Assembly: GCA_026393855.1 (NCBI GenBank)
Contig: JAPKZJ010000009.1
Location: forward strand, 1 to 64,000
DNA: 64,000 bases
DNA from: Candidatus Aminicenantes bacterium
Lineage (GTDB): Bacteria > Acidobacteriota > Aminicenantia > Aminicenantales > UBA4085
Direction: 5' to 3'
Shown one piece after another: positions 3,657-31,133 of the stretch (position 1 is its first letter; each line of letters starts with the position of its first letter). A program made the position numbers and the translations under genes. The notes beneath the pieces were generated by a model. The model was not told the origin of the DNA, did not search any database, and worked only from the letters and a program-made list of their open reading frames with translations.

Positions 3657-4229
3657 ATGATGACCGGAAAAAAGCTGAATCGATCGATCGGCAAAGTCGG
3701 AAAGACGCTGCCGGCCGCGATTTTTGCCATATTTATGGCCTTAACGCCCCTCTTTCCCATGGACGGCGGAACGCGCACGCTCTCGGGCGACCGACGGCTG
3801 TCTCTCTATGTCCTCAACAACCGCGAGCGGATCGAGATCGACTACTGCTTGGACGGCGTCTATGTCCCGGTGGCTTTGTCCATGATCGACCGCCTCCTCC
3901 GGGACCCGTTAAATGGCGGCGTCAAATCTATCGACCCCAAGCTCCTTGACCTGCTCTACGAGCTTCATGCCAAGGTCGGCGCAACCGGACCATTTACAGT
4001 GGTTTGCGGCTACCGTTCACCCCAGACGAACGCCGCTCTCCGGGCCCACAATCCCGCCGTGGCCGAGTATAGCCTGCACATGGAAGGGAAAGCCGTCGAT
4101 ATTCAGCTTCCCGGAGTCCCCCTTCAAACTCTCTATAAAGCCGCCTTGGATATGAAGGCCGGCGGGGTCGGCTATTATCCGAGATCCGGGTTCATCCACG
4201 TGGATGTCGGTCCGGTTCGCACTTGGTGA
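3657..4229 (+). CDS. YcbK/MepK-like murein endopeptidase (DUF882, M15-type)
   Basis: A 190-residue protein with an N-terminal membrane or signal segment (about 18-34) and a C-terminal zinc-peptidase fold related to M15 D-Ala-D-Ala peptidases. Probable zinc ligands are His141 and Asp148 in 'SLHMEGKAVDI' and His181 in 'FIHVDVG'; the 'CGYRSPQTN' turn is characteristic of YcbK. E. coli MepK cleaves 3-3 (mDAP-mDAP) peptidoglycan cross-links. The convergent neighbour 31 bases away is an LdtD-like L,D-transpeptidase, which makes those same cross-links, and this supports the assignment. The start has no strong Shine-Dalgarno sequence; the next in-frame ATG follows immediately. Confidence 0.85.
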   Translation: MMTGKKLNRSIGKVGKTLPAAIFAIFMALTPLFPMDGGTRTLSGDRRLSLYVLNNRERIEIDYCLDGVYVPVALSMIDRLLRDPLNGGVKSIDPKLLDLLYELHAKVGATGPFTVVCGYRSPQTNAALRAHNPAVAEYSLHMEGKAVDIQLPGVPLQTLYKAALDMKAGGVGYYPRSGFIHVDVGPVRTW

Positions 4230-4260
4230 CCGGCGGCCACGCCGATTTTCCCCTCCCGGC

Positions 4261-6009
4261 TCAACGCCCTGTCGCGGGGAGCGGGGCCGGCGGAATATCC
4301 CCCCCCAGCGCTTGGGCGAGTGCGGCATCCCGGCCATAGATATCCTTCCGAAAGTGAATGGCGCCGTCCGGTTCCCGCCAAGCCGTAAGATAGACGATAT
4401 AGACCGGGAGGGGGTCGGGGATGGAAAGCATTTTATTCGCGCCTCCGTCGATAGCCGCCTGGAGGCTTTCTTTTGTCCAAGCCGGGTCGTTGCGCAGGAG
4501 CGCGACTGCCAGGTCAAGCGGCCAGGCGATCCTAATGCAGCCGTGGCTGAAGGAGCGCGTAGACTGTTGAAAAAGCTCCCTCTGCGGGGTGTCGTGCAGG
4601 TAAACCGCCCACGGATTGGGGAACAGGAAGGCCAGCCGTCCGAGCGAGTTCAGGGGACCCGGGGCCTGAAGGACGCGGTACCGGAAATTCGACTCGTTCA
4701 GGGCGTTCCAATCCACGGCCGACGGATCGATCTCGGACGCCCCAGCGCCCCAGCCGTCATACAGCTTGTAGCCCCAGCGGCGGAAATAGCCTGGCTCCCG
4801 CTTGACGTTGGCCACTATTTCCTTGGCTGCGATCGTGGCCGGGACGTTCCAGACGGGGTTGACCTCAATTGTCGTCATCATCTCTTCGAAGACGGGGGTT
4901 TGGGCCGCGTTGGACCCGACGACCACCCGCATATCGAGGGTCACGGATCCATTCTCGACCAGATCGAGGTGGAAGGCCGGAATGTTGATCATGAGGTAGC
5001 GGCGGCCGAAGTCGCGGGGCAGCCAGCGCCAACGCTCCAGGTTGACCTTCAGCTGGGTCAGCCTCTCTTCGGCCGAAACGTTGAGCGAGGCCAGCGTTTC
5101 CTGGCCCACGACCCCGTCCGGGGCGGTCCCGAGGCGGGTCTGGAAACGACGGACCGCCGCCGCGACCGTATCATCGTAGACGTCCGCCGCCGCCGCAGGA
5201 CCCGCCGCGGCGGAGCCCGCGGCCAAGTCGCCGCCTAAAGCCAGCCTCTCCCGCAGCGCCAGAACCCGCGGCCCGGAGTCCCCGGGTCGGATCGAGGGGC
5301 CGATGGGTACCGGCGGCCAGCCCCCCCGGGCGACGACGTTGGTGAGTTCCCGGAGGGCTTCCCGCAGGCTCGCGTATTCCGGTCGGGAGGGTCGCAAGGT
5401 GTCCAGGGCGCCCGCCACGTCGCTCATATTCAGAGCCCGTCGCAGCACCGCTGCCGCGTCAGGGCGGTTCACTTGGATGAACCATTCCGACTCGATCATA
5501 GCCGGCTCGACGGTCCCGGAGGCGAGATGCGTGGCCAGCAGGATGAAGGCATCGCTCAGCAAGAGATCGAGGTCGGCCAGCCGGAGGGCCGAATCGCCGG
5601 CCGCGCCGCGCCGGTCCGTCTGCACAGCATCCAAAGCCGAACGGATGGGCTCGAGATGATAGGCGCCGCTCTTCAGCCCGTCCAGCCAAACTTGGGCTAG
5701 GACCCTGATCATGTCGTCAATGTTGGCCAGCGGCATCCCGTCCCGGGTCCAGGCCGGCTCGTACATCCGTCGTTCATAAAAGCGCTGTAAGGCCTCCGAT
5801 CCGACCAGGCAATCCCCGTTGCAGACCAGGCCTTCCCCTCGCGGTGAGACGGCCAGGCGTTCCCGGATGACGACGGCCGTATCGACGGGATCAGAGGGCG
5901 GGGGGAAAGCCTTTGCGGCGATTGACGGAAACGGCCGGGCGGCGATCAAGGCCAAGAGGGCGAAGCGGCAAAAATTCTTCAAATTCCATCCTGAAACATT
6001 GGTCTGCAC
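4261..6009 (-). CDS. L,D-transpeptidase of the YcbB/LdtD type
   Basis: A 582-residue exported protein. A hydrophobic signal segment (about 14-30) is followed by a scaffold region, a peptidoglycan-binding domain (about 255-325, 'LRERLALGG...DGVVGQETLASLN') and a C-terminal YkuD catalytic domain. The catalytic signature is complete: His472 in 'YLHDTP' and His489/Cys491 in 'SHGCIRI'. E. coli LdtD (YcbB) is of similar length and layout. The enzyme forms 3-3 cross-links in peptidoglycan in the periplasm. It is convergent with the MepK-like gene. Confidence 0.92.
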   Translation of the reverse strand: MQTNVSGWNLKNFCRFALLALIAARPFPSIAAKAFPPPSDPVDTAVVIRERLAVSPRGEGLVCNGDCLVGSEALQRFYERRMYEPAWTRDGMPLANIDDMIRVLAQVWLDGLKSGAYHLEPIRSALDAVQTDRRGAAGDSALRLADLDLLLSDAFILLATHLASGTVEPAMIESEWFIQVNRPDAAAVLRRALNMSDVAGALDTLRPSRPEYASLREALRELTNVVARGGWPPVPIGPSIRPGDSGPRVLALRERLALGGDLAAGSAAAGPAAAADVYDDTVAAAVRRFQTRLGTAPDGVVGQETLASLNVSAEERLTQLKVNLERWRWLPRDFGRRYLMINIPAFHLDLVENGSVTLDMRVVVGSNAAQTPVFEEMMTTIEVNPVWNVPATIAAKEIVANVKREPGYFRRWGYKLYDGWGAGASEIDPSAVDWNALNESNFRYRVLQAPGPLNSLGRLAFLFPNPWAVYLHDTPQRELFQQSTRSFSHGCIRIAWPLDLAVALLRNDPAWTKESLQAAIDGGANKMLSIPDPLPVYIVYLTAWREPDGAIHFRKDIYGRDAALAQALGGDIPPAPLPATGR

Positions 6010-22556: not shown

Positions 22557-23759
22557 TTGAGCCAATCCGATGCGGTCGCCCAAGCCCCGGCCGGAGCGCC
22601 CCGCGCCGAAGCCGCCCTCCGCAAGCTGGACCGGATGGGCAAGGCCTTTCGCCACGAAGAGCCCGACCGGGTCCCGATCAGCGACTTCTTCTGGGGCGGG
22701 TTCATCCGCCGCTGGCGAGCCGAGTTGGGCCTCCCGCCCGACACCGATATCTACCGCTATTACGATCTGGATTGGATCGTCACCACCCCGAACATGGATC
22801 CTTGGATCCGGCCATTCGAGACGCTCAGCGAAACGGCGGACGAGGTCGTGGTCAAAACCGGCTTCGGGGCCGTTATCAACAAGCGCTTCGAGCTGCCCAT
22901 GCCCGAGATGCGGTCATGGGAGGTCGACGAGTTCGAGAAGCTGGAGCGGGTCGAGTTCGACGACCCGTCCGACCGCCGCCGCTTCTTCGAGGCCGGCGAC
23001 AACCAGATCGGCGGCGTCGGCGACGGATTCCAGCGGAACTCTCCCCCCTGGATCGAGACCGTCCGCTCGCTGCGTCCGGAGTTCCCGGTCTACGGCAGCA
23101 TCATCGAGTCCAGCGAGTGCCTGACCCGCCTGGTCGGGCAGGGGAACGCCATGCTCTGGATGGGAGCCGAGCCCGAGCGGATGGGGGCGGTCATCGATCG
23201 CCTCGGGGCCTACTACCTGGAAATGACCCGGGCCCAGATCGAAGCGGCGGCCGGTCTGCTCGACGGGTTCGTCATCTGGGGCGACGTGGCCTACCGGCGA
23301 TCGACTTTCATGGCGCCGAACTACTGGCGGCGCTACTTCAAGCCCTGGGTGGCCCGCATGACCGCGCTGGCCCACGCCGCCGGCCTCCCGGTCATCTATC
23401 ACGGCTGCGGGAACGTGGCCGCGATCCTGCCGGACTTCATCGAGATCGGTGTCGACGCCTACAACCCGCTGGAAGCCAAAGCGGGGCTCGACGTCGTCGA
23501 GCTGCGGCGCCGCTACGGCCACCAGCTGGCCTTCTGCGGCAACGGCGACATCCAGGTCTGGGAAAGCGGCGATCCCGAAGCCATCCGGCGCGACGTCCTG
23601 CGCAAGCTCAACGCGGCCAAAGGCGGCGGCTACATCTTCCAGTCCGATCATTCCGTGACCAGCGGGGTGGCGGGCCGGACCTACGACATGATCGTCAAAT
23701 TGGTCCGCGAATACGGGCGCTACCCGCTCCGGCTCGGGCCGTTCGACGAGGAAGGGTGA
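22557..23759 (+). CDS. Uroporphyrinogen decarboxylase-like (UroD/MtaA superfamily) protein
   Basis: A 400-residue TIM-barrel protein of the URO-D superfamily, which also includes zinc-dependent methyltransferases (MtaA, CmuA). 'YHGCGN' (His282, Cys284) and a later 'FCGNGD' resemble the zinc-binding side of the methyltransferase branch more than true HemE. It starts at a TTG preceded by AAGGAGG four bases away. It is followed after 4 bases by a RhaT-type transporter and then a RhaM-type mutarotase, so it is more likely a sugar-associated enzyme than a heme-pathway one. Its substrate is unknown. Confidence 0.75.
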   Translation: MSQSDAVAQAPAGAPRAEAALRKLDRMGKAFRHEEPDRVPISDFFWGGFIRRWRAELGLPPDTDIYRYYDLDWIVTTPNMDPWIRPFETLSETADEVVVKTGFGAVINKRFELPMPEMRSWEVDEFEKLERVEFDDPSDRRRFFEAGDNQIGGVGDGFQRNSPPWIETVRSLRPEFPVYGSIIESSECLTRLVGQGNAMLWMGAEPERMGAVIDRLGAYYLEMTRAQIEAAAGLLDGFVIWGDVAYRRSTFMAPNYWRRYFKPWVARMTALAHAAGLPVIYHGCGNVAAILPDFIEIGVDAYNPLEAKAGLDVVELRRRYGHQLAFCGNGDIQVWESGDPEAIRRDVLRKLNAAKGGGYIFQSDHSVTSGVAGRTYDMIVKLVREYGRYPLRLGPFDEEG

Positions 23760-23763
23760 TCCC

Positions 23764-24837
23764 ATGGACCCGGTCTCTCCCAATCTCCTGCTCGGCGTCT
23801 CGATGCATGCGGTCGGGGCGTTCTTCGCCGCCACCTGCTACGCCCCCCAGAAGCGGATCCACGGCTGGTCCTGGCAGACCTACTGGATCACCCAGGCCGC
23901 CTTCTGCTGGTTCGCCCTGCCCATCATCGGGGCTCTGCTGACCATCCCCGACCTCGCCGCCGTGCTCCGGGCCGCGCCGCGAGGGCCGATGCTGTCGGCC
24001 TTTCTGCTGGGCGTCGCCTATGGCGTCGGCGGAACGGCTTTCGGGATCGCCATCCGGTACATCGGCTATTCGCTGACCTACGCCGTCGCCATCGGGTTGT
24101 CGGCCGTGCTGGGAACCCTCATCCCTCCCTTGGTCAAAGGCACGCTCGGGGCGACGCTCCGAAAGCCGGGCGCGTCCTGGATCGTAGCCGGCATCGCGGC
24201 CGGAGCGGTCGGCATCGCCATAACCGGATGGGCCGGCCGCCTCAAGGAGATCGATCTCGAGGCCCAGCAGCGCCGGGGCGAGTTCTCCCTGTCCAAAGGC
24301 CTGCTGCTCTCGCTTTTGGCCGGCGTCCTCTCGGCCGTCTATGGCTTCGCCCTGGCCGCCGGCGAGCCGATCGCCGACGTTGCCACGCAATACGGCGCCG
24401 GCGTCTTCCGCGGCAATGTCGTCTATATCTTCGCCAACACCGGGGCCTTCCTGACGACTGCGGTCTATTGTCTATTCCTGCATGCCCGCCATAAGACTTG
24501 GGGCGAATTCCGGCGTCCAGTACAGGTCCCGGATCAAATAAAGCCCCGCCTGCCGATGAACTACGTCCTGGCCGCGGTTACCGGGCTCTTCTGGTACGGC
24601 CAGTTCTTTTTCTACAACCTCGGCCATGTCCGCATGGGCACGTACAAGTTCACATCCTGGGCCATCCACATGATCATGCTGGTGCTCTTCAGCTCCTTGG
24701 TCGGCCTGGCTTTCCATGAGTGGCGCCGGTCCCGGAAGCTGACCCTGGCCATGATCCGACTGGCGCTCGCGGTGCTGGTCGCGGCGGTCCTGCTCCTGAC
24801 CTACGGCAACTATATCGGCGGCTTGGCGGCCGCCTGA
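23764..24837 (+). CDS. rhaT: L-rhamnose/H+ symporter (RhaT family)
   Basis: A 357-residue membrane protein with ten predicted helices that aligns with E. coli RhaT from the first helix ('FFAATCYAPQKRIHGWSWQTYW') through the fourth ('IRYIGYSLTYAVAIGLSAVLGTLIPP') to the C-terminus. It imports L-rhamnose or a related 6-deoxyhexose by proton symport. It lies 4 bases after the UroD-like gene and 13 bases before rhaM. No rhamnose isomerase or kinase is in the window, so downstream catabolism is elsewhere or different. Confidence 0.88.
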   Translation: MDPVSPNLLLGVSMHAVGAFFAATCYAPQKRIHGWSWQTYWITQAAFCWFALPIIGALLTIPDLAAVLRAAPRGPMLSAFLLGVAYGVGGTAFGIAIRYIGYSLTYAVAIGLSAVLGTLIPPLVKGTLGATLRKPGASWIVAGIAAGAVGIAITGWAGRLKEIDLEAQQRRGEFSLSKGLLLSLLAGVLSAVYGFALAAGEPIADVATQYGAGVFRGNVVYIFANTGAFLTTAVYCLFLHARHKTWGEFRRPVQVPDQIKPRLPMNYVLAAVTGLFWYGQFFFYNLGHVRMGTYKFTSWAIHMIMLVLFSSLVGLAFHEWRRSRKLTLAMIRLALAVLVAAVLLLTYGNYIGGLAAA

Positions 24838-24850
24838 GGGGAGAGGCGAG

Positions 24851-25189
24851 ATGAAACGATACGGCGCCGTCATCGGCCTGGACGAAGCGAAGGCCGAGGA
24901 ATATAAAGCCCTGCATGCCGCCGTCTGGCCCGAAGTCCTGGCCATGATCCGGGCCTGCCATATCCGCAACTATTCGATCTACCTGCGGCGCCTGGACGAC
25001 GGCCGGCTGTATTTGTTCAGCTATTTTGAATATATCGGGGAGGATTACGAAGTCGACATGGCCCGCATGGCGGCAGACCCGGCGACTCAGCGATGGTGGG
25101 CGGTCTGCATGCCTTGCCAGCGGCCTCTGGATAATCGCGCCCCCGGGGAATGGTGGGCCCCTCTGGAAGAGGTATTCCACACCGACTGA
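24851..25189 (+). CDS. rhaM: L-rhamnose mutarotase (RhaM/RhaU family)
   Basis: A 112-residue protein of the RhaM family, which interconverts alpha and beta anomers of L-rhamnose. Residues matching the E. coli active site are present: His22 in 'LHAAVWPE', Tyr41 in 'NYSIYL' and Trp82/Trp83 in 'RWW'. It is last in the UroD-like / rhaT / rhaM operon. The ATG at 24851 follows GGGGAGAGG. No terminator is visible before the convergent rsgA gene 21 bases on. Confidence 0.9.
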   Translation: MKRYGAVIGLDEAKAEEYKALHAAVWPEVLAMIRACHIRNYSIYLRRLDDGRLYLFSYFEYIGEDYEVDMARMAADPATQRWWAVCMPCQRPLDNRAPGEWWAPLEEVFHTD

Positions 25190-26333: not shown

Positions 26334-27155
26334 TTAAAATCCGCGCAGACTGGTGCTGTCGCGGCTCGGCAGCCCGCTTTTGGGCGTGCGCTTGAGGACC
26401 ACGTATTGGATGCCGCGCCCTTCGCAGAACTCGCGCTTCTCCGGCCGGTCGCCGTCGTCGTTGACCAGGTAGACGTCGGGCTTGATGCGGCTGATCTCGG
26501 GCGCCGCATCCAGCCAGCCGAAGCCGGAACCGACGAAAGCCTGCTTGACGTGCTTGACGGCCAGGACCATGTAGAGCCGGGTGTCCTGGCCGAGCAGGGG
26601 GTGGCCCTTGCCCTTGAGCATCCGGATGTTGGCGTCGCTGCCGACGTCGACGAAGAGGTCGCCGTAGCCCGAAGCCTCCTCGAAGAAACGGATATGGCCC
26701 GAGTGGAGCCAGTCGTAGCAACCGCTGACAATGACTTTGCGCTGGCGAGCCAGGCGGGAGTTGAGAGGGGGGGCTGGCGGCAGCGCGATCAGGTCCGTCT
26801 CGGGGATCGTCCGCACCTCGATCTCGAGGCCGGCCCCGAAGGTCCGCTTCGCGTCGTTCATCTCGCCTTCGGGCACGGCCCAGACCTGCGGCTTGACGAC
26901 ATCCAAACCCGGGACGGCGTCGGCGGTCGGGCTGCCGGTGGCGATGCGGGCGCTCTTGACGAAGCGGAGGGACTGGACGATGTAGAGCCGCTCGCCGGCC
27001 GGAAATTTCGCCGGCTTGCCGGAGATCCTCTTGACGGCGGCATCCGGCCAGACCCAGGCGTGGACATCGCCGATCTTGGCCGCCTCCTCCAGGAAACGGA
27101 CCTGGCGGGAGCGGAGGTCATCGAAGCTCCCGACGATGGCGACGGTCTTGATCAA
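26334..27155 (-). CDS. Cytidylyltransferase-family protein with two tandem domains, the first degenerate
   Basis: A 273-residue protein of the HxGH nucleotidyltransferase superfamily (glycerol-3-phosphate cytidylyltransferase / HldE-type adenylyltransferase). The C-terminal domain (about 138-273) has the catalytic 'HSGH' (151-154) and a terminal 'STS' motif. Residues 3-125 align with the same fold ('LRSRQVRFLEEAAKIGD' against 'LHSGHIRFFEEASGYGD') but HSGH is replaced by RSRQ, so this half is probably non-catalytic. The substrate is unknown; a sugar-phosphate or polyol-phosphate is likely from the family. It is upstream of rsgA. Confidence 0.82.
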   Translation of the reverse strand: MIKTVAIVGSFDDLRSRQVRFLEEAAKIGDVHAWVWPDAAVKRISGKPAKFPAGERLYIVQSLRFVKSARIATGSPTADAVPGLDVVKPQVWAVPEGEMNDAKRTFGAGLEIEVRTIPETDLIALPPAPPLNSRLARQRKVIVSGCYDWLHSGHIRFFEEASGYGDLFVDVGSDANIRMLKGKGHPLLGQDTRLYMVLAVKHVKQAFVGSGFGWLDAAPEISRIKPDVYLVNDDGDRPEKREFCEGRGIQYVVLKRTPKSGLPSRDSTSLRGF

Positions 27156-27247: not shown

Positions 27248-28591
27248 TCAGCGGAGGCGAACCTTCAGACCCGTACTGACCGATAGGTATTTCCAGCCGG
27301 GGGCCGTGACCGCCCCAACCGGGGCGAACGGAGCGCTGTAAGCTTCTGCTTCCAACTGCCATTGCAGTGTCGGGAGAAGCTCGATGCTGATGGTCCCCCA
27401 GCCTCGCAAGGCCGTCTTCCAAAGCCCGAACGCTTCGCCCGCTTTGGCCAGGCGCTGGATCCCCGCCCCCAGGTCGAGGGAAGCTGCGACCGGACCGTTC
27501 CCGCCGATCTCCCAGGCCGTCCCGGCTTCGAGGGTCTCGACGGCTCGAGGCGCGAAGTAGCCGGCCGAGGAGGCGCGGGCGAAGCCGAGCCAGTGGGCTT
27601 GGAGGGAGACTTCGCCGGACGCGCCGAGAGGCCGGACGAGCGCGATTCCGGATTGGAGGCGACGGTTGGCCTTCTCGCCGCGGGCTTCGATCCAGCCGGC
27701 CCGGCCCGTGCCCCTGATCCGGAACGGGCCGGCCGGGACGTCCAGCCCGAGCCGGGCTTCGTTCGAGACCGCCTTGTTCAGAGCCAGCAGCGGGTTGGCG
27801 ATGAGCGGTTTTCTTTGCGCCCTGATGTCGAGGGCAAGCCCCTCGTCCGGAGCCCGCCAGCGGACGCGTACCTCGGCCTCGGGTGTGGTCCAGGAGGCCG
27901 AACCCGATTTCTTCCCGTCGCCGGCATGGCGGGCGGCTCCCAAGCCCGCCTCCAGCCGCACAACCGGACTCGGCCGGCCTTCCAGCCGCAAGAGAAGCTC
28001 CTCGATCGAAGTCCGCCCCGCTTGGGTTTGCGTCCCGTCGTCGAGCCAGGAGGCGATGGCCAGACCCCCCAGCCGGAAACCCCCGCGGAAGGCCATGTCG
28101 CCCGCCAACCCGGCTCGCGCGACATGGGTTCCGTCGGAATCGACGGACGTCCCGCCCAGGGGCTGGAGCGTGGGGGCGGCGCGCAGTTTCCCTTTGGCCA
28201 GGGCCTGCTTGATGTCCTCCGCTTCCTGCGCCGTTTGCGCCGCGCGCTCGTAGGCCCGCAAGGCCTCGACCGTCCGGCCGAGCTTGAGCCAGGTGTTGCC
28301 GAGGGCCAGCCAGCCCCAGGCATCGCCGGGCTCGAGCGCCGTGTATTCGCGGAACCGCGGCAGGGCGCCGGCGGGGCTTTTGGCCAGGAGCCCGAGGAAG
28401 TAGTAGGCCGCGGATTGATCCGGATCGAGCTCGATGACCTGGAGGAACAAGGCCTCGGCCTTGACCCGGTTGCCCTCATTGTAGGCCGCCTTGGCCTGGA
28501 GGAGTCGCGCCTGGGCCGTCGTTTGCTCGGCTGCGGGAAGGCCCAAGACCATTACGGCCAGGATCATCAACGCGATTCGGATGCCTTTCAT
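27248..28591 (-). CDS. TPR protein with C-terminal outer-membrane beta-barrel-like domain
   Basis: A 447-residue exported protein: signal peptide (about 1-26), two to four TPR units (about 28-125, 'AAYYFLGLLAKSP', 'GWLALGNTWLKLGRTVEALRAYERA'), then about 300 residues of alternating amphipathic strands ending in 'YLSVSTGLKVRLR'. A 'GYFAP' segment resembles motifs in the barrels of TPR-porins such as BcsC. TPR plus barrel is the layout of outer-membrane polysaccharide exporters (PgaA, BcsC). Its ATG overlaps the upstream membrane gene's TGA (ATGA), tying it to the glycosyltransferase block. Export of a polymer is inferred. Confidence 0.7.
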   Translation of the reverse strand: MKGIRIALMILAVMVLGLPAAEQTTAQARLLQAKAAYNEGNRVKAEALFLQVIELDPDQSAAYYFLGLLAKSPAGALPRFREYTALEPGDAWGWLALGNTWLKLGRTVEALRAYERAAQTAQEAEDIKQALAKGKLRAAPTLQPLGGTSVDSDGTHVARAGLAGDMAFRGGFRLGGLAIASWLDDGTQTQAGRTSIEELLLRLEGRPSPVVRLEAGLGAARHAGDGKKSGSASWTTPEAEVRVRWRAPDEGLALDIRAQRKPLIANPLLALNKAVSNEARLGLDVPAGPFRIRGTGRAGWIEARGEKANRRLQSGIALVRPLGASGEVSLQAHWLGFARASSAGYFAPRAVETLEAGTAWEIGGNGPVAASLDLGAGIQRLAKAGEAFGLWKTALRGWGTISIELLPTLQWQLEAEAYSAPFAPVGAVTAPGWKYLSVSTGLKVRLR

Positions 28592-28956
28592 GTCTTGTCT
28601 TTCCGAATCGAGAATCGGGCCGCTTGGACGGCCAGGAGCACGACGGCCAGGGTGATGTACCCGGCCGCCAGGGCTGCCCAGCGGATGAAGTTGCGGGCAT
28701 GGACCGATTTCAGTCCCGTCGCGACAGCCGCTCCCGCGATGCTTTTGGCCGAGGGAACAACGAGGAGCCCGAGAATCCAGCCCGTGGCCCATATCCCGAG
28801 CAGGATGCCGGCGGCGATCCCCGTGTTCCCGACGATTTTTGGCCAGGCGACGGGGACTCTTCGCAGGCGGCGCCAAATCCCTCGCAGCGGGAGGAGCAGC
28901 GCCGCGGCCAGATAGAACAGGCCGCCGATGCCGGTTCCCGGCACGCCCGCCGTCAT
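28588..28956 (-). CDS. Small inner-membrane protein of unknown function in polysaccharide block
   Basis: A 122-residue protein with three predicted membrane helices (about 10-27, 44-66 and 91-112) and a basic C-terminus ('RFSIRKDKT'). No family was recognised. Its ATG directly abuts the TAG of the glycosyltransferase gene and its stop overlaps the TPR-barrel gene, so all three are translated from one message. By position it could be the small accessory subunit of a polysaccharide synthase, as PgaD is for PgaC; sequence alone does not show this. Confidence 0.75.
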   Translation of the reverse strand: MTAGVPGTGIGGLFYLAAALLLPLRGIWRRLRRVPVAWPKIVGNTGIAAGILLGIWATGWILGLLVVPSAKSIAGAAVATGLKSVHARNFIRWAALAAGYITLAVVLLAVQAARFSIRKDKT

Positions 28957-30057
28957 CTAATGCCCCTTCTCATAAATGAGGAAGCTGCGGCCGCGGACGA
29001 CTTCCGACCATAACGCTTCCAGGAAGTAGATCGCGTTGACCGTCCGCAGAATAAAGAAGCAAGGCACGCTGAGAAGCGCCCGCCCCACTTCCCGCCGGGG
29101 CCAGGCTCCGACGACGACCGGGACGACGACGGCGGGCACGTCGATGACGTATCCGAGCAGGATCAGGGGACTCCGGAGCAGAATGGCGATGGCGGGCAGC
29201 AACAGCAGATAGACGAGCGAGGCGACGATGGCGTCCCAGAGCGCGACGGCCACGGCCGAGCGCAGAAACGGGATTTTGAGAAGTCCCCGGCGGTGAAGCC
29301 GGACGTTCTGGACGAAACCGTGCGACCATCGCCGAAGCTGTTTTTTCAGGAATCCGAAGTCGTGCGGTTCGATGGGGAAAGCGACGGCGTCGGGGATGAA
29401 CCGGACCGCGTACCCGTTCTGGTACATCGTCCAGGTCAAGTCGACGTCCTCGGCCAAGGTCCGGTTCCGCCAGCCCCCGATCTCGCGCAGGGCCTCGGTG
29501 CGGTACATCGAGAAGCAGCCCGAGCTGATCAACGGCGTCCCGTACTGGTCCTGGACGCGCTTGTAGAAAGTGAAAGCGAAAAGGTATTCGATGTAGCGGC
29601 CCCGCTCCCAGACGCTCCGGACGCGCCGGGGCAAAACGCTGCCGCAAGCGGCGGCGACCCGGGGATCTTCGAAGGCGGGGAGAAGCCTTTCGATCGCGTC
29701 CGGGGCGAGCGTCGTATCGGCGTCCAGGGCGATCGCATACGGCGTCCGCACCATCGGCAAAGCGAAGGTCTGGGCCCCGGCCTTGGAGCCCGTATTGGCG
29801 GGGGGGCGGACGACGGTGACCCCGAAGGCGCGGGCCGCGTCGCCCGTGCCGTCGGTCGAACAGTCATCGACGACGATGACCGAGGCGGGAGTCCGGGTCT
29901 GGGCTAGGAGGCTGCGAAGGGTGTCTGCGATGGCGGGTGCTTCATTGAAAGCGGGAATGATCACCGTCAGAGGGACTGTCGGACCGGGGATGACCGGCTC
30001 GGGAGAGATACAGTCCCGGGGCTGGGGCTTGCGGCCGGACCGGCTCGGTGCGGACAT
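28957..30057 (-). CDS. Membrane-bound processive-type family 2 glycosyltransferase
   Basis: A 366-residue GT-A fold enzyme. The nucleotide-sugar site shows 'VVDDCS' (63-68) and 'DAD' (112-114), the acceptor/catalytic region 'EDVD' (203-206), and a 'QLRRW' motif (240-244) matching the QxxRW signature of cellulose, hyaluronan and PgaC-type synthases. Three or four membrane helices follow (about 262-345). This combination predicts a processive polymerase that moves the chain through the membrane. It lies 44 bases after a GDP-mannose 3,5-epimerase gene and immediately before the small membrane and TPR-barrel genes. There is no strong Shine-Dalgarno sequence at the chosen ATG. Confidence 0.88.
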   Translation of the reverse strand: MSAPSRSGRKPQPRDCISPEPVIPGPTVPLTVIIPAFNEAPAIADTLRSLLAQTRTPASVIVVDDCSTDGTGDAARAFGVTVVRPPANTGSKAGAQTFALPMVRTPYAIALDADTTLAPDAIERLLPAFEDPRVAAACGSVLPRRVRSVWERGRYIEYLFAFTFYKRVQDQYGTPLISSGCFSMYRTEALREIGGWRNRTLAEDVDLTWTMYQNGYAVRFIPDAVAFPIEPHDFGFLKKQLRRWSHGFVQNVRLHRRGLLKIPFLRSAVAVALWDAIVASLVYLLLLPAIAILLRSPLILLGYVIDVPAVVVPVVVGAWPRREVGRALLSVPCFFILRTVNAIYFLEALWSEVVRGRSFLIYEKGH

Positions 30058-30101
30058 CTTGGCATTAGACCAAGCGGCCGGGCTTTCCTTGGCGCCGAAA
30101 T

Positions 30102-31133
30102 TCAATCGACCGTCTTTTGGCCCGCCTTCTTGAGCTCGTACTGGCCCTTGATCCAGTCGAAGGTCTTCTTCATCCCGACCCGCAGAGGCGTATCGGGCTC
30201 CCAGCCCAGCATCTTCATGATGAAGGTGTTGTCGGAGTTGCGGCCGGCCACACCGCGCGGCGCGTCCAGCTCGTAGGTCCGGCGCAGCTTGACGCCGGCA
30301 ATCCCTTCGACCAGCGTCACCAAGTCGTTGACCGATATCAGCTCGCTTGTGCCCAGGTTGATCGGGGTGGCGATCAGGGCCTCGGTGTGAGTGATGCGGT
30401 CGATGCCCTTGACGCAGTCGTCGATGTACATGTAGCTGCGGGTCTGGGTGCCGTCGCCCCAGATGCGAATGCGGCCGCTCTTGCTGTCGACGGCCTCGAT
30501 GACCTTGCGGCTGATGGCGGCGGGCGCCTTCTCGCGTCCCCCCGTCCAGGTGCCCCACGGCCCATAGACGTTGTGGAAGCGGGCGATGAACGTCTTCATG
30601 CCCCGCTCGGCCCAGTACTCCTGGCAGAACATCTCGGAGATGAGCTTTTCCCAGCCGTAGCCGCGCTCGGACATGGCCGGGTAGGCGTCGGACTCCTTGA
30701 GGGCCCGCACGTGGGGGTCCTTCTGCAGATCGGTGTTGTAGACGCAGGCCGAGGAGGAGTAGAAGTAGCGCCGGCAACCCGCTTTGTAGGCCGACTCGAT
30801 CATGTGGGTGTTGATCAGGATGGAGCGGAGGCATTCGATCCGGAAGCGCTCGATGAAGCCCATGCCGCCCATGTCCGCGGCCAATTGATAGATTTCGTCC
30901 GCGCCCTCGACGGCCCGCTTGCAACTGACCTCCTGGCTCAAGTCGAGGCAGAGACACTCGACCCCGGGAACGCGCTGGTACCAGTCATGGAGCGGCTTTT
31001 TGTCGACGGCCCGTATGCGGGTGAAGCCCTTGGCCTTGAAGTAGGCGGCCAGGCTGCCGCCGATAAAGCCGCCGGCGCCGGCGATGACGATTTGGATGCC
31101 CTTGTCCGGGGCTTTGGCTTTGGCTTGGGTCAT
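30102..31133 (-). CDS. GDP-mannose 3,5-epimerase-like NAD-dependent epimerase
   Basis: A 343-residue extended short-chain dehydrogenase. The Rossmann motif is 'GAGGFIG' (19-25). Signature segments of GDP-mannose 3,5-epimerase (GME) are unusually well kept: 'AADMGGMGFI' (85-94), 'SSACVY' (Cys130), 'YGWEK' (Tyr159, Lys163), 'GGREKAPAA' (Lys202) and 'GRNSDN'. In plant GME the equivalent Cys and Lys perform acid/base epimerisation at C3 and C5, giving GDP-L-galactose and GDP-L-gulose. It heads the four-gene polysaccharide block and would supply its sugar nucleotide. The ATG at 31133 is preceded by GGAGG. Confidence 0.88.
   Translation of the reverse strand: MTQAKAKAPDKGIQIVIAGAGGFIGGSLAAYFKAKGFTRIRAVDKKPLHDWYQRVPGVECLCLDLSQEVSCKRAVEGADEIYQLAADMGGMGFIERFRIECLRSILINTHMIESAYKAGCRRYFYSSSACVYNTDLQKDPHVRALKESDAYPAMSERGYGWEKLISEMFCQEYWAERGMKTFIARFHNVYGPWGTWTGGREKAPAAISRKVIEAVDSKSGRIRIWGDGTQTRSYMYIDDCVKGIDRITHTEALIATPINLGTSELISVNDLVTLVEGIAGVKLRRTYELDAPRGVAGRNSDNTFIMKMLGWEPDTPLRVGMKKTFDWIKGQYELKKAGQKTVD

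Follow-up and report, generated by a model that had tools for sequence, protein, structure and literature searches.

Synthase-dependent exopolysaccharide systems consist of a polymerisation core in the inner membrane, modifying enzymes and a TPR-linked barrel in the outer membrane, and their operons encode one or more periplasmic modifying enzymes (PMC9384988). A TPR domain attached to the outer-membrane barrel typifies BcsC, PelB and PgaA, and the barrels of PgaA and BcsC both have 16 strands (PMC9384988). In a survey of known systems, the commonest change was that Gram-positives had lost the gene for the outer-membrane pore (PMC7112194). Our literature search returned such surveys of known systems and no description of the gene trio that is the subject of this study.

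The window analysed here is a stretch of 64,000 nucleotides from a Candidatus Aminicenantes genome (3.68 Mb in 144 contigs). An earlier note had proposed that four genes between positions 27248 and 31133, all abutting or overlapping, form a minimal exopolysaccharide system with the functional parts of Pga, Bcs or Alg systems. We find that the conserved unit has three genes, encoding a GT2 synthase, a 122-aa membrane protein and a TPR-barrel exporter, and not four. The nearest named relative carrying this cassette is another Candidatus Aminicenantes metagenome-assembled genome (locus L010).

The cassette and its resident neighbours

All four genes are complete open reading frames on the minus strand. 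Farthest upstream lies a gene for a GDP-mannose 3,5-epimerase-like protein of 343 aa (30102..31133; PDB 8sg0, 5e-79), separated by 44 nt from the ATG at 30057 with which the GT2 gene starts (28957..30057, 366 aa; Pfam Glycos_transf_2, 4.6e-33). The TAG stop codon of the latter directly abuts the ATG of the gene for the 122-aa three-helix protein (28588..28956), a predicted accessory subunit of the synthase, which in turn overlaps by 4 nt with the gene of the outer-membrane exporter (27248..28591; 447 aa with signal peptide, TPRs and barrel). The close packing described earlier therefore holds for the trio but not for the epimerase gene. On the other side, the trio is followed by a resident cytidylyltransferase-like gene on the same strand (26334..27155, 273 aa; PF01467, 9.5e-10).

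The epimerase is part of an older syntenic block and has no link to the trio elsewhere. In a genome of the same genus (G002), some 49 nt separate the gene of an epimerase of 89% identity from the cytidylyltransferase-like gene; the trio is absent and the surrounding gene order is otherwise the same. A further genome (G008) agrees, and the synteny, with the cytidylyltransferase-like gene directly 3' of the epimerase gene in siblings, is seen in L147 and L152. In the one sibling that does carry the trio (G005), the epimerase is represented only by a 46% homologue on another contig, and no epimerase match was found in the other cassette loci searched (L009-L027). This empty site in siblings led us to reject the epimerase as a system component, and the four-gene order, whose conservation the earlier note had suggested checking, is not kept. 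Because the trio is rare in the family, it was probably inserted beside the epimerase rather than lost in the siblings. There are no telling direct or inverted repeats at the insertion site that would mark the scar of a mobile element, and the codon use of the trio falls within the range of the window.

Since the cytidylyltransferase-like gene comes after the epimerase gene in siblings, the two may be an old sugar-nucleotide pair. The 273-aa product carries its cytidylyltransferase-like domain at the C-terminus, and by eye its N-terminal half looks similar. The plus strand at 22560-25189 holds, side by side, a URO-D-like gene, an L-rhamnose symporter gene of the RhaT type and a small gene whose product by eye resembles rhamnose mutarotase.

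Synthase, small membrane protein and exporter

The exporter model, built with AlphaFold2 on seven homologues (pLDDT 82), comprises three TPR units (about residues 26-138) and a 16-strand barrel (141-444), within the 14-18 strands named in the earlier proposal, and the lack of a C-terminal barrel that would have spoken against that proposal was not seen. Its top Foldseek matches in the PDB are BcsC (9b8a), PelB (9h80), BcsC again (9b8h and 6tzk) and PgaA (4y25), with VIA-align Z scores of 21.8 for PgaA 4y25 and BcsC 6tzk and 21.2 for PelB 9h80. Among the matches listed, the only other large barrel is FhaC (Z 16.9), and the remaining ones align mainly over the TPR part. The protein is thus predicted to have the TPR domain on an outer-membrane barrel that is found in synthase-dependent systems, at about half the size of PgaA (447 versus 807 aa), as had been estimated. 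A 'SAGYFAP' stretch of the exporter family resembles 'GGYYSPQ' of BcsC, and 'STAGYF' recurs in a divergent TPR-barrel protein encoded 3' of the GT2 and small-protein pair in a proteobacterium (L019). An identity with YaiO was rejected; this protein of 257 aa has no match to the exporter profile.

The GT2 protein is laid out as a cytosolic GT-A domain followed by QLRRW (residues 240-244), C-terminal membrane or interface helices and a terminal KGH. It was described earlier as a QxxRW enzyme with membrane helices, which is correct for the motif and the C-terminal helices, while N-terminal membrane helices are missing. Invariant across 19 homologues are D64/D65, D112-x-D114, E203-D204, Q240, R243 and W244 as well as the KGH, so that the D, DxD, ED and QxxRW features of the membrane-embedded GT2s of synthase-dependent systems are all present. 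QxxRW is not confined to processive enzymes, as it also occurs in those transferring just one or a few sugars. The best NCBIfam model is PgaC_IcaA with 116 bits, so far under its equivalog cut-off of 422 bits that we do not file the protein as PgaC. Against seven GT2s of E. coli, the family profile scored 127 bits for PgaC, 99 for YaiP, 56 for BcsA, 36 for ArnC, 27 for WcaA, 19 for GtrB/YfdH and 2 for OpgH. In sequence the enzyme is thus nearer to PgaC than to ArnC, GtrB or WcaA, and the clustering with non-processive enzymes that would have spoken against the earlier proposal was not seen. The E. coli reference branches in the GT2 tree are long and unsurely placed, and the comparison with processive enzymes therefore rests on profile scores and fold. 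By fold, the nearest structure is the Chlorella virus hyaluronan synthase (8snc), with a Z score of 29.2 and 322 residues aligned at 2.4 Å. The alignment is limited to its residues 78-452, and the membrane helices before and after this part have no counterpart in the GT2. We consider the GT2 likely to be processive on the strength of these models, but not more firmly than that because the archaeal mannosyltransferase PcManGT is a close second (Z 27.5).

The 122-aa protein has three hydrophobic stretches, as noted before, and carries the N-terminal motif MTAGxPGTGIGGxFY; M-x-x-G-x-PGTG or something close to it is found in its homologues, of which the copy in L020 is divergent. Its charges, which average +5.3 in loop 1 and +3.4 in the tail and are absent from the N-terminus, predict an N-out, C-in topology. 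We found no match to any Pfam or NCBIfam family, and two candidate identities were rejected: PgaD has no sequence support (an HMM score of 1.9 bits and an hhalign probability of 1.8%), and neither has GtrA, with no GtrA Pfam match in 18 members and a score of -0.1 bits for YfdG against the 122-aa profile. Homologues lie directly 3' of the GT2 gene in all 31 members of the clade that we examined, and separate searches of 298 Gemmatimonadota genomes with the two proteins hit an identical set of 11 genomes, in which the two genes are neighbours. From this constant adjacency and co-occurrence we infer that the protein is a subunit of the synthase, which would imply a direct contact between the two. 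When the GT2 and the 122-aa protein were joined by in-frame read-through of the TAG codon, AlphaFold gave a pTM of 0.86 with a low-confidence join, and the alignment of this model to hyaluronan synthase stops short of the 122-aa part.

Compared with PgaABCD, the poly-beta-1,6-GlcNAc system of E. coli, the cassette shares the relationship of its GT2 to PgaC, the small membrane protein directly after the synthase and the TPR-linked exporter with 16 strands. However, it differs in the shorter GT2 without N-terminal membrane helices (366 aa, 441 in PgaC), in a small protein that by sequence is unrelated to PgaD, in the smaller exporter and in the absence of the PgaB deacetylase/hydrolase, which is missing from the block and its flanks. 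Bcs systems share the exporter fold, a GY[FY]xP barrel stretch and a cellulose-synthase-like GT2 fold, but the cassette is much shorter and lacks BcsB, BcsZ and a TPR array of BcsC length, and its GT2 has no Pfam match to a PilZ domain. The likeness to Pel is confined to a barrel with terminal TPRs; no other Pel component was seen beside the exporter, and the synthase here is a GT2. Class I hyaluronan synthase has the same GT2 core in one chain with six membrane helices, whereas the cassette GT2 is missing the two N-terminal helices as well as the last ones and comes with a separate 122-aa protein. E. coli YaiP, finally, is a related GT2 encoded near an outer-membrane protein gene, yet this gene encodes the dissimilar YaiO. 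As previously reported, no PilZ, deacetylase or lyase gene is present in the four-gene block, though the host genome has five PilZ matches elsewhere. The cassette itself encodes no periplasmic modifying enzyme, and in the related loci that we read we noticed none next to the pair.

Proposed mechanism and competing explanations

We regard the trio as probably being a minimal synthase-dependent exopolysaccharide cassette with a new accessory subunit, a reading in which processivity and polymer export are deduced from sequence and models. At the inner membrane, the GT2 would polymerise a sugar nucleotide and move the chain to the other side. The 122-aa protein would complete or gate the membrane part of the synthase, given that neither the N-terminal nor the final helices of hyaluronan synthase have an equivalent in the GT2. 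In the periplasm the chain would then be received by the TPR-barrel protein and exported through its 16-strand outer-membrane pore. The proposed division into synthase, accessory subunit and exporter is supported by the closeness of the 16-strand model to PgaA, BcsC and PelB, and this core of the earlier Pga/Bcs/Alg comparison stands without the epimerase as a fourth part. By analogy, the trio may be filed with the known synthase-dependent systems, but as one without a modifying enzyme and with a small subunit of no described family. If this is true, few trans-envelope polysaccharide systems would be smaller than this one, with its one synthase, one small subunit and one exporter.

Several observations weigh against this reading, i.e., the occurrence of QxxRW outside processive enzymes, the absence of a modifying enzyme and of a linked regulator, five diderm loci without an adjacent barrel gene, the missing sequence kinship of the 122-aa protein to PgaD and the close fold match to PcManGT. 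The last of these, an enzyme of similar size, would fit a non-processive GT2 that makes a glycolipid or short oligosaccharide with the 122-aa protein as flippase or helper, much like GtrA-GtrB, whose members resemble the pair, a GT2 and a membrane protein of roughly 120 aa, in size. We nevertheless think this unlikely, since GtrB/YfdH scores poorly and has no QxxRW, the small protein shows no relationship to GtrA and the linked barrel is of the polysaccharide-exporter type. It is more doubtful still that the epimerase supplies a dedicated GDP-sugar (such as GDP-L-galactose) to the synthase in a true four-gene system: its strong match to GDP-mannose 3,5-epimerase and its position just upstream on the same strand are set against the trio-free arrangement in G002, the distant homologue in G005 and the other loci without it. 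Finally, the trio might be what is left of a pga-type operon that has decayed or no longer functions, as the halved exporter and the lack of a linked modifying enzyme or c-di-GMP receptor could suggest, but with invariant catalytic residues in 19 GT2s, intact reading frames and a gene order kept in many phyla within one well-supported clade we consider this highly improbable.

Distribution and natural variants

In the tree, the 31 GT2s fall into a single clade (support 100/98), and the members included in alignment A2 share 61-72% identity with the GT2 of the window. They come from Aminicenantes, Gemmatimonadota, Myxococcota, Nitrospirota, Omnitrophota, Planctomycetota, Verrucomicrobiota, Pseudomonadota, Actinomycetota and Chloroflexota as well as from a Methanoperedens-type archaeon, whose contig (L012, 5989-7381) carries the pair as sister to a Nitrospirota copy (100/97). 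The order of GT2 and then 122-aa gene, one part of the four-gene order that the earlier note had wanted checked, is kept across these phyla. Within them the cassette GT2 is rare (11/298 genomes of Gemmatimonadota, 2/218 of Omnitrophota, 6/226 of Nocardioidaceae and 2/99 in the window's own neighbourhood), and this rarity across phyla speaks for horizontal spread of the cassette.

A barrel gene lies 3' of the pair in Aminicenantes, Gemmatimonadota and the proteobacterium L019. It adjoins the pair in none of the eight monoderm or archaeal loci (L012, L021-L023, L120-L123), of which the monoderm ones mirror the pore-gene loss reported for Gram-positives (PMC7112194), and none was seen next to the pair in loci L009, L013, L015, L020 and L027 from diderm phyla.

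In 11 of the 13 Gemmatimonadota loci long enough to judge (L011, L014, L016, L018, L024, L110-L112, L114, L115 and L118), a single open frame encodes both the 122-aa homologue and the TPR-barrel protein, linked by a stretch that looks like a signal peptide (e.g., ARPAAAQ). There is no ATG, GTG or TTG between the two parts in L018 (1392-3227) and L114, so that the exporter is most likely made there as part of one chain. The predicted C-in topology of the small protein would place the internal segment correctly for export and cleavage, and the fusion ties the small protein to the exporter. A bolder proposal, which we put forward tentatively and think rather unlikely to be right in both its halves, is that throughout the wider clade, the window's copy included, the 122-aa protein represents a new class of subunits of the synthase and that in some Gemmatimonadota subunit and exporter stay uncut, with a single polypeptide spanning the envelope and feeding the polymer from synthase to pore. 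The two-gene core without a barrel (Actinomycetota, Chloroflexota and the archaeon) and its barrel-fused form in Gemmatimonadota are natural parts that could be used to test which components a synthase requires for making and moving a chain, and how the chain is handed over to the outer membrane.

Spread of the cassette by phages or plasmids was considered and rejected, as these carry no close member and only GT2 relatives of ≤51% identity; no 122-aa gene was present in the phage and plasmid loci read. Three viral contigs from IMG/VR (L089, L090 and L091, around 4001-5047) encode GT2 relatives (34-42%) without the small protein. These group with sequences of Streptomyces and Nonomuraea, in which YEKGR stands in place of the YEKGH at the end of the cassette GT2s. 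In candidate phyla, GT2s of 34-39% identity (L025, 5947-7812; L026, 5956-8016) also end in KGH, and the small protein is replaced 3' of them by a polysaccharide deacetylase in L025 and a relative of it in L026.
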